This document shows, one piece after another, positions 12 to 4,292 of a DNA stretch of 30,354 nucleotides (position 1 is the first letter of the stretch; every line of letters begins with the position of its first letter). A program made the position numbers and the translations under genes. The notes under the pieces are model-generated. The model did not search any database, had not been told where the DNA came from, and saw only the letters and a program-made list of their open reading frames with translations. Source of the DNA: an uncultured Prevotellaceae bacterium (GTDB taxonomy: Bacteria; Bacteroidota; Bacteroidia; Bacteroidales; Bacteroidaceae); contig CAMJNN010000008.1 in the NCBI GenBank assembly GCA_946407325.1, positions 1 to 30,354 on the forward strand. The letters run 5' to 3'.

Positions 12-128
12 ATGAAGAATAAAGACCTTTGGAAGACGGTGATTCAGTTCGCCATCTCGATACTGACGGCAGCATTAACTGCTATGAGCACCACCTCGTG
101 CATGGGACATGGTCCTATCTTTATGTAA
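12..128 (+). CDS. smalltalk-type small protein (38 aa)
   Basis: A 38-codon ORF starts with ATG and ends with TAA. It has a short polar start (MKNKDLWK), one hydrophobic helix (about residues 9–26) and a TTSC motif around Cys30 that resembles a lipobox. This pattern (K-rich start, then TVIQF, then a helix, then TTSCM) matches the 'smalltalk protein' family of Bacteroidales, which I know as a tiny protein of unknown function often encoded next to an HU-family DNA-binding protein and an N-acetylmuramoyl-L-alanine amidase. The upstream neighbour lies outside the window. A strong terminator follows 17 nt after the stop, so this is the last gene of its transcript. It may be a membrane-inserted or lipid-anchored peptide; that part is inference. 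Confidence 0.72.
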   Translation: MKNKDLWKTVIQFAISILTAALTAMSTTSCMGHGPIFM

Positions 129-259: not shown

Positions 260-991
260 TTATCTGCGCCCAAAGTTTTGGTATTGTACAACAACTTCAG
301 TCCATACGGTTTTCATTTGGAGTACATCAATTACAGAGTATAGCATGTAACGGCACATATCTACCATAGTATGACAAATACAAATACCGTCAAAATCACA
401 ACTTACAGGAATATCATGAGCCCATGAATGACCATCCTCCAATTCATCATGTATGATAGTATCTCTATCATCTTTATAATTGCAGTTAAACTCTATCGTT
501 TCACGATCATCATTCAACATATATATAGTTGACATCATCAAAGGAAAGTTGCTACCATAGCGCTCGGCTTCAGGTAAAAGATTTATGTCTTCTAGATCAC
601 CAAAATCAAAAGTAAGCGTTCCCGTTACTTCGTAATCATCTACATAATCATCTTTGGGTTTAACAACCAGTTCTTGACATATATCAGCCATCTTGATTCT
701 CAGTTTGAGCACTTTATCCTGAATGTATTGATTCTGCATCGCCATACGTTCACATTCTTCATTTGTACCTTCAAACATACTGTCAAGTAACCGCTTACGT
801 TCAAGAAGCAGTAACATCAGTTTTTCTTCATCTTTAGTATGACACAAAGCATTTTCCCAGTCATCACCTACTAGTTTCCTTATTTTCTTCTCGGTCTTCT
901 GTAATGCCTCTTTTATCGCCTCAAAAGAATCATCCAAAAGCTCTATCTTTTTGAGAATTTTCAATTCCTTATCAATACTAAAGTATCTCAT
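260..991 (-). CDS. Unknown protein, fourth gene of WYL/UDG-fold cassette
   Basis: I do not recognise this 243-aa protein. The first ~105 residues are charged and helical with heptad-like Leu/Ile/Lys/Glu spacing (for example the stretch LMLLLLERKRLL), suggesting a coiled coil. The rest is acidic and β-rich, with a Cys/His-containing segment (CDFDGICICHTMVDMC) near residues 200–215 that could bind metal, although the spacing is not a standard zinc finger. There is no signal peptide or membrane segment, so it is probably cytoplasmic. It starts inside the end of the preceding gene (4-nt ATGA overlap), which implies translational coupling with the UDG-fold gene upstream. It is likely a partner of the two UDG-fold proteins; its function is unknown. 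Confidence 0.75.
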   Translation of the reverse strand: MRYFSIDKELKILKKIELLDDSFEAIKEALQKTEKKIRKLVGDDWENALCHTKDEEKLMLLLLERKRLLDSMFEGTNEECERMAMQNQYIQDKVLKLRIKMADICQELVVKPKDDYVDDYEVTGTLTFDFGDLEDINLLPEAERYGSNFPLMMSTIYMLNDDRETIEFNCNYKDDRDTIIHDELEDGHSWAHDIPVSCDFDGICICHTMVDMCRYMLYSVIDVLQMKTVWTEVVVQYQNFGRR

Positions 992-1749
992 ATTGTCATA
1001 GTTTTTAAGTTATTTATCTCTTCTGCCAGATAAAGGATATTACCTTTATCATGCCATCCACGTTTACGACTTATGGGCAACACCAAGCGTTGGCCTTTTA
1101 TTTCGTCATATAGCTCATGAGTAACAGTATCACCAAGAAGAACAATTACATGAGGGTTCGTCAAATCTAATAGTCTGTGAAAACGGGTATGACATATCTT
1201 CCTTACACCAACATGATTGGTCTTGTCATATAGTTTAATCATGCGATAGAGTTTACTCGCATCTTGTGTAGCCATCGGATAGAGATTGGTTGCCATAACC
1301 TTCTGTTCAAATAAATCGCTGAGTTTCTCACGACTCATGTCAGGATAAACGTGCCTATAGATACTAACTAACAGCTCGCACATAGTGTAGGGAAAAAGAT
1401 TCTTCATTTTCTTACTTTTATCCCACCATTTTCCTTCTCTTGCATTATCATCAACTATCCATTGAAGATGACTTCTCCATAAGTTAGCACTTTCTGCGGG
1501 GATTATCTTCTTTGTTGGGTCTTTCAAACATTTCTTGTTCTTATCCCAATTAAACCTGTTCCAATGAATAAATTTTCCTGGTCCTGGATTGATCCCAACA
1601 AAAAGGATTTCAGGATTCTTGAAAATAGGACTATCTAAGTCTGCCCACCCCAGATAGTCTTGGTACTTATCCAGATTAAGTTTGATATTGTCTCTCACAT
1701 CGACAATATCTTTTGATATTTCTATGTAGGCTTGTTGGATTTCAGTCAT
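988..1749 (-). CDS. Uracil-DNA-glycosylase-fold protein (MUG/TDG-like motif)
   Basis: This 253-aa protein contains ILFVGINPGPG at residues 48–58 after a helical N-terminus. GINPG is the active-site loop of the MUG/TDG branch of the uracil-DNA glycosylase superfamily, where the Asn (here Asn54) is catalytic. A later hydrophobic strand, HVIVLLGDTV at about 200–209, fits the central sheet of that fold. The C-terminal loop reads ISRKRGWHD rather than a recognisable HPSPLS or NPSGLS motif, so the substrate may differ from uracil or the second catalytic motif may be degenerate. The middle (residues 60–130) carries a Trp- and Lys-rich insertion. It is third in a four-gene operon, 9 nt after another UDG-fold gene. 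Fold: fairly confident. Reaction: inferred. Confidence 0.7.
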   Translation of the reverse strand: MTEIQQAYIEISKDIVDVRDNIKLNLDKYQDYLGWADLDSPIFKNPEILFVGINPGPGKFIHWNRFNWDKNKKCLKDPTKKIIPAESANLWRSHLQWIVDDNAREGKWWDKSKKMKNLFPYTMCELLVSIYRHVYPDMSREKLSDLFEQKVMATNLYPMATQDASKLYRMIKLYDKTNHVGVRKICHTRFHRLLDLTNPHVIVLLGDTVTHELYDEIKGQRLVLPISRKRGWHDKGNILYLAEEINNLKTMTI

Positions 1750-1758
1750 AAGTTGTTA

Positions 1759-2535
1759 TTAATGACTAAGGTAAGCCCAATAATGATCCATAGCACTAAG
1801 ATAGTTAGGCTTGCCAGCATTAGCGCCAAAGACACCAGGATGATGGGTAAATAGTATTATGGTACCTGAAGGTTTATGATAGCGGATGCTGTTATGACCC
1901 GCAATCGTTTTTAATTCTCCCTTAGGATATTTCTTCAACACGAAATCATAGATAGGTTGTCCTGTACAGATTATAATATTAGGTTGCAAGATGTTATGAA
2001 TTTCTTGCCAAAGAAAAAAACCATAATCCCAAAGATGTTGCTTTAATAAACTGTCTTCGAGAAATCCTCCTCCTGGCTGCTTCTTACATTCTACCAAGGC
2101 AAAAGGTTGGGTATTAAAAAACTCTCTCATGTCATCTTCGTGCTTGACCACTTCTTCATAGGGCCAATCATTGATTTTCTCTGCTTTGCACACACCCCAG
2201 AGAATATAAGCAATATGTTTGATAAAAGGAGAATCAAGGTTTCTGTTCTTTTTTTTGATTTCAAGTTTTAAAGCATCATCCCCCTCATCATCTTTTAACC
2301 AATAACGGATGTCTTCATCCCATTTCTCTACACCCTTTTGGTTTTGGTCTTTCAGTAGGAATAGTACTCGCTTCTCGGCTTTCAGCCATTCTTGTACTGC
2401 TTGTTCTTTTGTTAAATGGTTCTTATAGATGACTCCGTCTTTTGTAAAGTGGGTATCACCGTTTTTCTGCATTGCACCAAACCAAGCTTCGAACAATTCT
2501 TTCAGCCTTGAATCTATGTCTATTTGAGTACCCAT
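1759..2535 (-). CDS. Second UDG-superfamily-like protein (HHPG motif)
   Basis: This 258-aa protein shows β-strand KRVLFLLKDQN (residues 55–65), strand NIIICTGQPIYDFV (about 186–199) and IILFTHHPGVFGAN (about 226–239). The layout (early hydrophobic strand with a loop, then a strand ending in a G-containing turn, then a strand ending in H-P) follows the uracil-DNA glycosylase fold, and HHPG sits where family members carry HPS. The first-motif loop reads LKDQN rather than GQDPY or GxNPG, so it is a divergent member. A region near 90–100 (KKKNRNLDSPF) is very basic. It begins 3 nt after the WYL regulator and precedes the other UDG-fold gene by 9 nt. Two non-identical UDG-fold proteins side by side suggest a heteromer or sensor/effector pair (inference). 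Confidence 0.6.
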   Translation of the reverse strand: MGTQIDIDSRLKELFEAWFGAMQKNGDTHFTKDGVIYKNHLTKEQAVQEWLKAEKRVLFLLKDQNQKGVEKWDEDIRYWLKDDEGDDALKLEIKKKNRNLDSPFIKHIAYILWGVCKAEKINDWPYEEVVKHEDDMREFFNTQPFALVECKKQPGGGFLEDSLLKQHLWDYGFFLWQEIHNILQPNIIICTGQPIYDFVLKKYPKGELKTIAGHNSIRYHKPSGTIILFTHHPGVFGANAGKPNYLSAMDHYWAYLSH

Positions 2536-2538
2536 ATT

Positions 2539-3444
2539 TCAATCACAATATATGTTATTCATTAATGAAACCTTAAATGCTATAATCTTACGCAAACCTT
2601 CAGGGGAAATCACTTCTACGTCCGGTATGTGTGATAATATCTCTTGCTGGAAGTCGAATGTTGGGCGTAAATCATATTCAAAGATTGAATAATCTTCACC
2701 AACAAGCGTTTCTTTTTGTGATTCATGCAAAGGCAAAGAACGGATATATTTGGCTTGGTTCCCTGTAACCTTCAGCCTTATACGTTCTTTCTTTGTGCCA
2801 TCATCAGCTATAATGCCAAAGCAATCTTTGAAATAAGCTTCGGCTGAGAAGTCTTTTGGCATTGTGTACTGTATGTCCGTCTTCTTCAATTCAAGTATTC
2901 TGTCAAGCGCAAAGATCAGGGCTTTTTCGTGTGATTGGCAATAAGCCACCACATACCACCGCTGCTTAAACAATTTAACGCAATAGGGTTCTATCAAGTA
3001 TTCTTTACTTTCTGTGCGCCAAAAACTTTGATAGGACAATTGCAAGACCTTGTTTTCTCTCATAGCTTCAATGACCAGCGATAGGTATTCATGCCCTGAT
3101 GGTATGCTTTCCAACAATATCCTGTCTTTCAAGCTCTGGTTTTCTATTAGCAGGTTACTTACAGAAATGGTATTTAGCAACCAACTTCGCAAGCTACCAT
3201 TCTTTAAATCATCAGCGTTATCAATATAATAATGGTATCCACCTCTTCGGTTGCAGTCAATTATAAGACCAAACAATTCTTCTACCGCTATACGCCATTT
3301 GTGAAAGGTACGAAGAGGTAATTCCTCGCCTTCACTGAGGTCACTATTCTGCCATCTTGCGTTGATTTCCTCAAAGGTTATTCGCTTAGCCTTGTATATG
3401 GTCTCTACAAGCCAAACATACTTGTTTAAAAGGTTCTTTGCCAT
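2539..3444 (-). CDS. WYL-domain transcriptional regulator
   Basis: This 301-aa protein has an N-terminal winged-helix-type region (residues ~1–75), then a WYL domain centred on KQRWYVVAYCQ and followed by ALIFALDRILEL, and a C-terminal WCX-type extension (EILSHIPDVEVISPEGLR). WYL proteins bind DNA and sense nucleic acids or nucleotides, and commonly repress defence operons (BrxR and CapW types). I chose the ATG at 3444 because the reading frame further upstream opens only with GTG and lacks family-like sequence, while MAKNLLNKYVWLVETIYKAK is a typical start. It is first in the four-gene operon, so it is the likely autoregulator of the cassette. Confidence 0.85.
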   Translation of the reverse strand: MAKNLLNKYVWLVETIYKAKRITFEEINARWQNSDLSEGEELPLRTFHKWRIAVEELFGLIIDCNRRGGYHYYIDNADDLKNGSLRSWLLNTISVSNLLIENQSLKDRILLESIPSGHEYLSLVIEAMRENKVLQLSYQSFWRTESKEYLIEPYCVKLFKQRWYVVAYCQSHEKALIFALDRILELKKTDIQYTMPKDFSAEAYFKDCFGIIADDGTKKERIRLKVTGNQAKYIRSLPLHESQKETLVGEDYSIFEYDLRPTFDFQQEILSHIPDVEVISPEGLRKIIAFKVSLMNNIYCD

Positions 3445-3463
3445 AACAATACATTTATGGTCG

Positions 3464-3471
3464 TAAAAGTA
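3464..3471 (-). promoter_or_regulatory. Weak −7-like box before the WYL operon
   Basis: On the minus strand TACTTTTA matches the Bacteroidetes −7 consensus TAnnTTTG at 7 of 8 positions and lies 19 nt before the WYL ATG. No clear TTG −33 box is seen at the right distance, so the call is tentative. Confidence 0.3.
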
Positions 3472-3684
3472 TGAAAAAGATGTGTAAAATTGAGGCACAT
3501 GTTTGGGAAAATTAAGTATCGCATTTATTTTCTTTGTTTTCTATAATCATTCTCTTCAACTATTACTATATTTGCGGATGAAGTGTAGTTTGAATAGAGA
3601 TGCCCTTTTAACAATATCTTAATAAGAAACGACAATGAAGCACACGTTTTTGGTCTTTTACCACTAAAAAAAAGAATTTCATCA

Positions 3685-3727: not shown

Positions 3728-3880
3728 CTAACCAAATTTAGGAATGCCAATATAGCTGAAATAACGCTGGAACCTAAAGATGGTATGATAAAGAAGACTT
3801 TCAGTGATTCACACTATTCATGGTGGAGATCAACAAATTTTGATGTTTCACAAGCTACAATAATAAGAAATGAAGAATAA
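3728..3880 (+). pseudogene. Probably frameshifted small ORF before the DUF6575-like gene
   Basis: The frame 3728–3880 reads as protein-like sequence for 50 codons (…NIAEITLEPKDGMIKKTF… ending …SQATIIRNEE) but has no start codon at its head. An ATG at 3744 lies one frame off and runs into a stop after three codons (ATGCCAATATAG). Restoring one nucleotide after ATGCC would give a continuous small protein beginning MPNIAEITLEP. The only in-frame ATG (3785) would yield 31 aa. Its stop overlaps the start of the next gene by 11 nt, an arrangement typical of coupled genes, so it was probably once (or still is) a functional small partner. Alternative reading: a real 31-aa protein, or a sequencing indel. 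Confidence 0.4.
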
Positions 3881-4292
3881 ATTGAAAACAGAAAAGATTC
3901 TTGACTTTGTGGATGTACCACAATTGTTTGTGGCTCGTGATTCTTTTGACACTCGCTATCTCTGCATGCTATATGACGACGAGTCAGTATGCAGATACTC
4001 AGCTATCAGAATCTCAGCCAATCGTCTTGATGACTTTTATCAAGGTGTATGCGACTTGCGCTATCTTTTCTTGTACCCGGAAAATACGGGTGAATATTTC
4101 GATGTATCTTTCATTGATGGAGAGTATATACTATCCCTTAGCAATGAAACTTCATTATCTGAAACGAAACTCCCAGCCGAGGGATACAAGCTGTCTGCCG
4201 ACTTGAACGACAAAGTGATTGTCAACCTTCCCTTAAAGGATCACAACCTACTGACAGAGTTAGTCCGCAAGTTTGGTTGGGCGTGTATGTAG
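3870..4292 (+). CDS. DUF6575-like protein
   Basis: A 140-aa soluble acidic protein with no signal or membrane segment. The start, MKNKLKTEKILDFVDVPQLF, followed by VARDSFDTRYLCMLYDDE, resembles the small proteins grouped as DUF6575 (from memory, not searched). Function is unknown; such proteins often sit in accessory or toxin–antitoxin-like islands. The length seems complete: TAG follows FGWACM. It is transcribed from the exact-consensus promoter at 3685–3716, opposite to the WYL cassette, and its first codons overlap the tail of the small ORF at 3728–3880. Codon use is A+T-rich like the rest of this 3.5–4.6 kb stretch and unlike the G+C-rich operons at 5–11 kb. Confidence 0.6.
   Translation: MKNKLKTEKILDFVDVPQLFVARDSFDTRYLCMLYDDESVCRYSAIRISANRLDDFYQGVCDLRYLFLYPENTGEYFDVSFIDGEYILSLSNETSLSETKLPAEGYKLSADLNDKVIVNLPLKDHNLLTELVRKFGWACM

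Follow-up and report, generated by a model that had tools for sequence, protein, structure and literature searches.

A WYL-headed operon with two uracil-DNA glycosylase-fold proteins in a Prevotellaceae contig, a candidate base-excision defense module

A four-gene operon headed by a WYL-domain regulator lies at the start of contig CAMJNN010000008.1 from an uncultured Prevotellaceae bacterium, the first 30,354 nucleotides of which were analyzed (here called the window). The operon had been noticed in an earlier reading of the DNA letters (the sequence-only reading), which described a tight minus-strand array of a WYL regulator, two proteins of the uracil-DNA glycosylase (UDG) fold, here called HHPG and GINPG, and an unrecognized fourth protein, all within an A+T-rich stretch, and which proposed that the set was an undescribed defense system. 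Reading of the open reading frames (ORFs) bore out the layout, as the genes run from 3444 to 260 with intergenic gaps of 3, 9, and −4 nt, and the G+C content of the operon block is 37.3% compared to 44.4% for the whole window. The window's edge is only 259 bases past the fourth gene, such that sequence to the left of position 1 is outside view. The features of the locus are collected in Table 1.

Table 1. Features of the operon and its immediate surroundings in the window
Feature	Position	Strand	Details
Four-gene operon (WYL regulator, HHPG, GINPG, fourth protein)	260-3444	−	
WYL+WCX transcriptional regulator, first gene	2539..3444	−	301 aa from ATG 3444; Pfam WYL 6.9e-18, WCX 2.1e-8
UDG-fold protein 1, HHPG	1759..2535	−	258 aa; HHPG motif near C-terminus; AlphaFold 2 pLDDT 94.5, pTM 0.92
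UDG-fold protein 2, GINPG	988..1749	−	253 aa; motif I VGINPGPG near N-terminus; AlphaFold 2 pLDDT 94.5, pTM 0.91
Fourth protein, unnamed family	260..991	−	243 aa; named by no library; alignment A5
Imperfect palindrome, candidate WYL operator	3480..3500	−	21 bp, ATGTGCCTCAATTTTACACAT; 36-56 nt upstream of WYL ATG
Operator core TRTGC-N9-GCAYA	3481-3499	−	TGTGCCTCAATTTTACACA; 9/10 core positions
−7-like box	3464..3471	−	TACTTTTA; 7/8 to TAnnTTTG; 8 nt downstream of palindrome
ORF matching about half of DUF6575	3870-4292	+	E 1.2e-7; divergent from operon
38-aa ORF at window edge	12-128	+	

Structure prediction supported the proposed UDG fold of both proteins. The best Protein Data Bank matches of the HHPG model were members of the UDG superfamily, with the Sulfolobus tokodaii (S. 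tokodaii) UDG as the top match by VIA-align, and the GINPG model matched SMUG1 and family-IV UDG. The Pfam UDG profile PF03167 scored 17.9 bits against HHPG and 18.5 bits against GINPG, each below the curated cutoff of 24.3, and NCBIfam gave no useful match for either UDG-fold protein or for the fourth protein. Canonical UDGs carry a motif I of the G-x-x-P-G type and a motif II of the H-P-S type. In HHPG, LLKDQ replaces motif I and the H-P of motif II is kept, while GINPG keeps motif I and, in 11 close alignment rows, has RxxGWH in place of motif II; neither has both catalytic motifs of the canonical UDG families I to VI intact. Residues K62, Q64, E149, K151, K152, and the C-terminal H232-P233 of HHPG are invariant in 40 alignment rows, with D63 kept in 39 of the 40, and N54, N155, and R228 of GINPG are invariant in 25 rows (alignment A4). 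Direct comparison of the two families by hhalign gave a weak match (39%, E 3e-4) in which the motif region was slid against the secondary-structure equivalence used here. We conclude that HHPG and GINPG are predicted to share the UDG fold and that each lacks one of the canonical motifs.

The fourth protein remained unrecognized, as the sequence-only reading had it, in that no library names it, but it is no orphan. An orphan gene was considered and rejected, as a genome search, a larger alignment, and a profile-profile comparison all connected relatives to it. Protein searches gave 3 relatives, and a relative was present in at least 11 of the 349 genomes searched in the family to which G002 belongs; here and below, genome searches scored no more than the few best candidates in each genome (6-7), and counts of genomes are thus lower bounds. 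WYL genes lie within 8 kb at 6 of those 11 loci, sharing the strand of the fourth gene in L076 (where the two adjoin), L082, and L075 and lying on the opposite strand in L072, L074, and L080; no WYL gene was seen within the stretch read in L073, L077, L078, L079, and L081. In L075, the WYL gene is in two frames, an HHPG gene on the other strand separates it from the fourth gene, and the fourth-gene relative itself has a WYL-like N-terminus (E 3.2e-4; 21.1 bits, cutoff 21.8). The small profile A2 detected no fourth-gene relative in L001-L014 and did not match the candidates in L003 and L057. Profile-profile comparison of the window-type family (A7) with an MTVQEIF-type family (A6; members in L003, L057, L082, L083, and L132) aligned them over 208 columns with a probability of 98% (E 3.1e-13). 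Fourth-gene relatives also lie near WYL, GINPG, and tubulin-like genes at other loci. As a separate observation, L072 and L074 have relaxase- and primase-like genes (named by reading) together with the WYL and fourth genes, and L072 also has a tubulin-like gene; these segments are possibly a mobilizable carrier.

The first gene of the operon encodes a WYL domain followed by a C-terminal WCX domain, as in regulators of the BrxR/CapW type, and the sequence-only assignment of a WYL regulator stood. No Pfam match covers residues 1-118. Relatives of the protein are 49 to 60% identical to it, and WYL matches at E ≤ 1e-50 occur in at least 103 of the 221 genomes searched in the family that includes G001. 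Upstream of the gene is an imperfect palindrome followed by a box resembling the Bacteroidetes −7 consensus, TAnnTTTG. The core of the palindrome, TRTGC-N9-GCAYA, recurs in the same register upstream of close WYL genes, often directly ahead of a TAnnTTTG box, and such boxes are found at comparable spacing in several WYL relatives. A match at 9 or all 10 of the core positions was present in 15 of 39 distinct close upstream regions (null, 1.3%) and in 2 of 21 distant ones (null, 1.0%). Because the consensus was derived by eye from the same 39 regions that were afterwards counted, the count of 15 is not independent, and 20 later-fetched regions were therefore scored as a held-out test, of which 5 scored 9 or higher against a null of 1.1% (P 2e-6). 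Within the window, a score of at least 9 occurs at five places, the site at 3481-3499 included, and thus it is position, not rarity, that marks this site. We conclude that the palindrome is a candidate WYL operator and that, judged from sequence, the promoter palindrome expected of a BrxR/CapW-type regulator is present.

Relatives of all four genes occur together in L003, as the sequence-only proposal would require, but the exact four-gene set was not found outside the window among the loci read. Metagenome proteins with 90 to 96% identity also exist (P0001, P0093, and P0103). L003 has nine genes on one strand in the order WYL, DEDDh exonuclease (RNase_T, 1e-20; PADLOC PDC-S48), HHPG, GINPG, DUF6140, a tubulin/FtsZ-like gene (8.6e-31), a 140-aa protein, the fourth-gene relative, and an SprT/WLM-like gene (WLM E 4.2e-5, under the cutoff), separated by −28 to +99 nt. 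L002 is nearly identical to L003 by reading, with its fourth-gene relative in two frames, and L001 likewise has WYL, DEDDh, HHPG, and GINPG genes. In L083, a WYL gene (7e-101), GINPG, and a 235-aa fourth-gene relative follow one another on the same strand with spacers of 39 and 134 nt, which is the window order minus HHPG. In L005 (Sunxiuqinia), a type I restriction subunit is followed by a WYL gene that overlaps GINPG and then by a tubulin-like gene. Tubulin-like genes stand after or near GINPG in L002, L003, L005, and L057, and MoxR-like genes are present in L057 and L044 (the latter named by reading). A fixed four-gene system was rejected, as the DEDDh exonuclease, the tubulin-like gene, and further cargo are present at some loci and absent from others. 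We conclude that the gene set is modular.

Linkage of UDG-fold genes to WYL genes was well above expectation. A WYL gene lies within 6 kb in 10 of 25 UDG loci (21 with HHPG and 4 with GINPG only), compared to 0.16 expected from 41 WYL matches in about 80.6 Mb of 22 genomes that have a UDG locus, and in 9 of 24 loci when G003, a near-duplicate of G001, is set aside. Proximity of this kind is a looser criterion than membership of one operon: in 8 of the 10 linked loci (G001, G003, G002, G005, G295, G209, G044, and G032), WYL and UDG genes form a one-strand row, with the HHPG gene of G044 in two frames, and in the remaining two the WYL gene is nearby, with other genes between: in L039 of G226, where it is on the other strand, and in L041 of G046. 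In addition, L009 has a WYL match 7 kb from its GINPG gene.

To view linkage from the WYL side, 20 close loci (from the 25 best matches, 4 others being in the locus set already and G864 being left out), 20 intermediate loci (from 21 matches between 6.6e-91 and 1.5e-80, with G916 left out), and 20 distant loci (from the 25 weakest matches) were read, many of them cut by contig ends. A DEDDh exonuclease gene was near WYL in 8 close, 3 intermediate, and 0 distant loci (close versus distant, Fisher P 0.003), the fourth-gene family in 2, 0, and 0, and a tubulin-like gene in 1, 2, and 0, respectively. Same-strand arrays follow WYL in 8 of the 20 close loci (L114, L115, L121, L123, L127, L128, L129, and L132). 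The cargo includes GmrSD_N and GmrSD_C proteins in L082 and related HEC-06/Orf5/SspE matches in L123 and L127, PDDEXK_4/PDC-S26 in L132, Mrr in L001, TIR in L130, and PLD/DrmC-like and PDC-S23 proteins in L115. These array and cargo counts indicate that some members of the WYL branch stand at the head of variable arrays and that UDG proteins are one cargo among several.

Other observations concern the same arrays. WYL, often with DEDDh, also heads same-strand, variable-cargo arrays in L001, L003, and L082, and PDC-S23/RhuM-like and MoxR-like proteins (names partly by reading) are among the further cargo. Perhaps WYL-headed arrays with a shared operator are a general layout for Bacteroidaceae defense arrays. 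Weak Pfam UDG matches, both under the cutoff, occur behind WYL in L115:3917-4651 (−; E 8.1e-5, just under) and L131:9800-10489 (+; E 0.081), and additional UDG-fold families may sit in such arrays.

Relatives were linked to defense-type genes, with GmrSD-, PD-(D/E)XK-, type I restriction-modification, CBASS, Wadjet, and Cas1/Cas2 genes among their neighbors, and location is not consistently housekeeping, although the window copy itself adjoins metabolic and ribosomal genes. Protein searches gave 10 GINPG relatives, and a profile scan of genome contigs gave 14 loci. A defense-type neighbor by PADLOC or Pfam was present at 9 of the 14 (L001-L003, L004, L005, L006, L008, L010, and L013), a raw count with no background rate; five loci (L007, L009, L011, L012, and L014) were judged by reading alone. 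The neighbors include Wadjet JetC and JetD in L004, a type I restriction endonuclease in L005, a CBASS-type cyclase 5 kb away in L006, a CBASS cyclase and phospholipase in L008, and Cas1 and Cas2 in L013. In L010, type I methyltransferase, specificity, and restriction endonuclease genes flank GINPG; more closely, the relative at L010:9908-10615 sits between specificity/PDDEXK genes and the restriction subunit. Protein searches gave 92 relatives of HHPG.

Given the UDG folds of both proteins, the WYL linkage, the recurrent palindrome, and the defense-type cargo and neighbors, we lean, if by a small measure, toward the operon being a WYL-repressed base-excision defense module of the Brig type. 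In an uninfected cell, a WYL dimer would bind the palindrome at 3480-3500 and block its own promoter, and repression would be lifted when the WYL domain binds products of infection or of DNA damage, either single-stranded DNA or nucleotides. HHPG and GINPG would then turn modified or aberrant bases of the incoming DNA out of the helix and excise them, or at least bind them, and the abasic sites left behind would stall replication. Their different base pockets (E149 in HHPG and N155 in GINPG, each ending a like strand) might cover two modifications. The fourth protein, for which the sequence-only reading suggested an effector or scaffold role, may, joined in larger arrays by the DEDDh exonuclease and tubulin-like GTPase, process abasic DNA or strengthen the response. 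That bases of invading DNA are excised is reasoned from the UDG fold and the precedents of Brig1 and Brig3, and repression by WYL, its relief by infection or damage, and the partner role of the fourth protein are likewise presumed.

Several results weigh against such a module. Catalysis, substrate, and anti-phage activity of the operon are predictions from sequence, and since HHPG lacks the canonical motif I and GINPG the canonical motif II, either could be inactive. From the WYL side, HHPG was present in 1 of 20 close loci and 0 of 20 each of the intermediate and distant loci, GINPG was present in 0 of 20 of every class, and opposite-strand genes follow WYL in several close loci (L116, L117, L119, L125, and others). 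From the UDG side, 15 of the 25 loci have no WYL gene within 6 kb, several of these being on short contigs. By reading, GINPG homologs in L007, L011, L012, and L014 have no defense neighbor and HHPG homologs in L040, L042, L043, L045, L046, L048, and L050 lie amid ordinary-looking genes. In the window, no defense gene was recognized among the proteins scanned, the named neighbors being metabolic and ribosomal, and no PADLOC-DB 2.0.0 system model matched GINPG or the fourth protein among the five window proteins run. Lastly, the likeness of the operon to Brig is one of fold and context.

One alternative is that the operon serves host DNA repair under genotoxic stress, with a damage-responsive WYL regulator and UDG-fold enzymes that clear deaminated or oxidized bases from the cell's own DNA. 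WYL regulators responding to DNA damage exist (DriD, PafBC, and SiwR), the UDG fold is chiefly a repair fold, the DEDDh exonuclease and SprT/WLM-like protein of L003 fit repair too, and the window copy adjoins metabolic and ribosomal genes. Repair is nonetheless unlikely: the distribution is patchy, since at E ≤ 1e-8 HHPG is in at least 17 and GINPG in at least 3 of the 393 genomes sampled from the order (GINPG in at least 2 of 348 in the genus sample), the cargo is variable and includes restriction-type and TIR proteins, and relaxase- and primase-like genes stand near WYL and the fourth gene in L072 and L074.

Alternatively, HHPG and GINPG might be sensors of bases or nucleotides rather than enzymes, and the effector would be the fourth protein or, where arrays are larger, their tubulin-like protein or exonuclease. 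The LLKDQ of HHPG at motif I, the RxxGWH of GINPG at motif II, and the tubulin-like genes after or near GINPG are consistent with sensing. The other motif residues, however, are invariant across the 40 HHPG and 25 GINPG rows, which is what retention of an active site would predict, and we regard pure sensing as rather improbable. A module of mobile elements that serves anti-restriction, addiction, or element stability is very improbable: despite the relaxase- and primase-like genes (named by reading) of L072 and L074, tblastn searches limited to HHPG and GINPG gave no match at E ≤ 1e-5 among 72,556 records of plasmids and 50,697 of phages, the profiles of GINPG, HHPG, and the fourth gene picked out 37, 57, and 129 pattern stretches, respectively, in viral contigs, not one of them a relative, and L004 and L083 are in chromosome-size contigs of 5.1 and 2.2 Mb.

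A more specific form of the base-excision defense module can be ventured, though it is doubtful. Bacteroidaceae would carry WYL-headed "plug-in" arrays with a shared operator, often a DEDDh exonuclease, and then variable cargo, of which the window would hold a compact, nuclease-free, modification-dependent restriction unit with two UDG-fold enzymes that differ in their base pockets, and the fourth protein, with the tubulin-like GTPase in larger arrays, would turn abasic phage DNA into a cell-level response. If the defense module is real, base-excision immunity extends to a further bacterial group, the gut Bacteroidales, and phages of these bacteria may carry base modifications worth targeting. 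The palindrome offers a handle for finding entire arrays headed by WYL, and partners such as the tubulin-like and fourth genes hint at a possible step after excision.

Upstream of the WYL gene, the window continues with the partial DUF6575 ORF, which is possibly decayed, then metabolic genes, and then a ribosomal region; RpoA, S4, S11, S3, EF-G, S12, and EF-P were among ten window proteins scanned. The 38-aa ORF at the window edge resembles Bacteroidales "smalltalk" proteins. PADLOC matched HHPG to HORMA alone (E 0.016) and the WYL protein to generic WYL models. PHROGs gave no match for HHPG, GINPG, or the fourth protein and one weak unnamed family for the WYL protein, and tRNA and Rfam scans of the window gave no match.

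Known systems resemble the operon in parts. No paper joining WYL, uracil-DNA glycosylase, and anti-phage defense was found in the open literature, which leaves out most subscription journals and is weak evidence, and none was found there on WYL, Bacteroidales, defense systems, and exonuclease; the sequence-only reading, too, knew of no described system with this gene set. DefensePredictor places a UDG in a predicted, unvalidated defense system, known here from a figure-legend abbreviation (PMC13092281). Among MoxR-vWA and GTPase/tubulin conflict systems, Kaur et al. report that a DNA-glycosylase domain is rare in the GAP1-N1 systems and that tubulin-family proteins occur (PMC7159879). The tubulin-like genes near GINPG (L002, L003, L005, and L057) and MoxR-like genes (L057 and L044) are shared with these, but the window operon is WYL headed, with no GAP1, GTPase, or HSP70 recognized. 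CapW binds imperfect palindromes of 19 to 24 bp that overlap the −10 site and represses CBASS, and BrxR binds inverted repeats of two 11-bp halves with a 5-bp spacer and represses BREX (PMC9122601, PMC9122588). Like them, the window WYL gene heads its operon behind a promoter palindrome; unlike them, it has other cargo and its own operator, TRTGC-N9-GCAYA, with the −7-like box downstream of it. Restriction glycosylases, also called base-excision restriction enzymes, defend by removing a base so that an abasic site remains and are reported to be sequence specific and blocked by methylation (PMC10273834), but no methyltransferase was seen in the window operon.

Close parallels are the anti-phage DNA glycosylases Brig1, Brig2, and Brig3. 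Brig1 and Brig3 are UDG-fold enzymes that protect by excising modified phage bases, Brig3 being encoded in a two-gene operon with a partner that widens its range (PMC11078745, PMC13160076). The S. tokodaii UDG is the best structural match of Brig1, as it is of HHPG by VIA-align, and Brig1 has a glutamate (E147) for the frequent asparagine of UDGs, to which E149 of HHPG, a residue that ends a like strand, would be equivalent. Many Brig1 homologs are in defense islands, and ADP-ribosylglycohydrolase neighbors reported for Brig loci were also observed near HHPG homologs at L052:10478-11428 (Pfam, 9.3e-73) and L041:13183-13989 (5.7e-42) (PMC11078745, PMC13160076). No Brig was named among the Protein Data Bank matches of HHPG and GINPG, and the operon differs from Brig in having two distinct UDG-fold proteins, a WYL gene at its head, a different fourth gene, and a Bacteroidales host. 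We conclude that base-excision immunity is already known from Brig and the restriction glycosylases and that what would be new here is a glycosylase-type defense under a WYL switch, carried in modular arrays.

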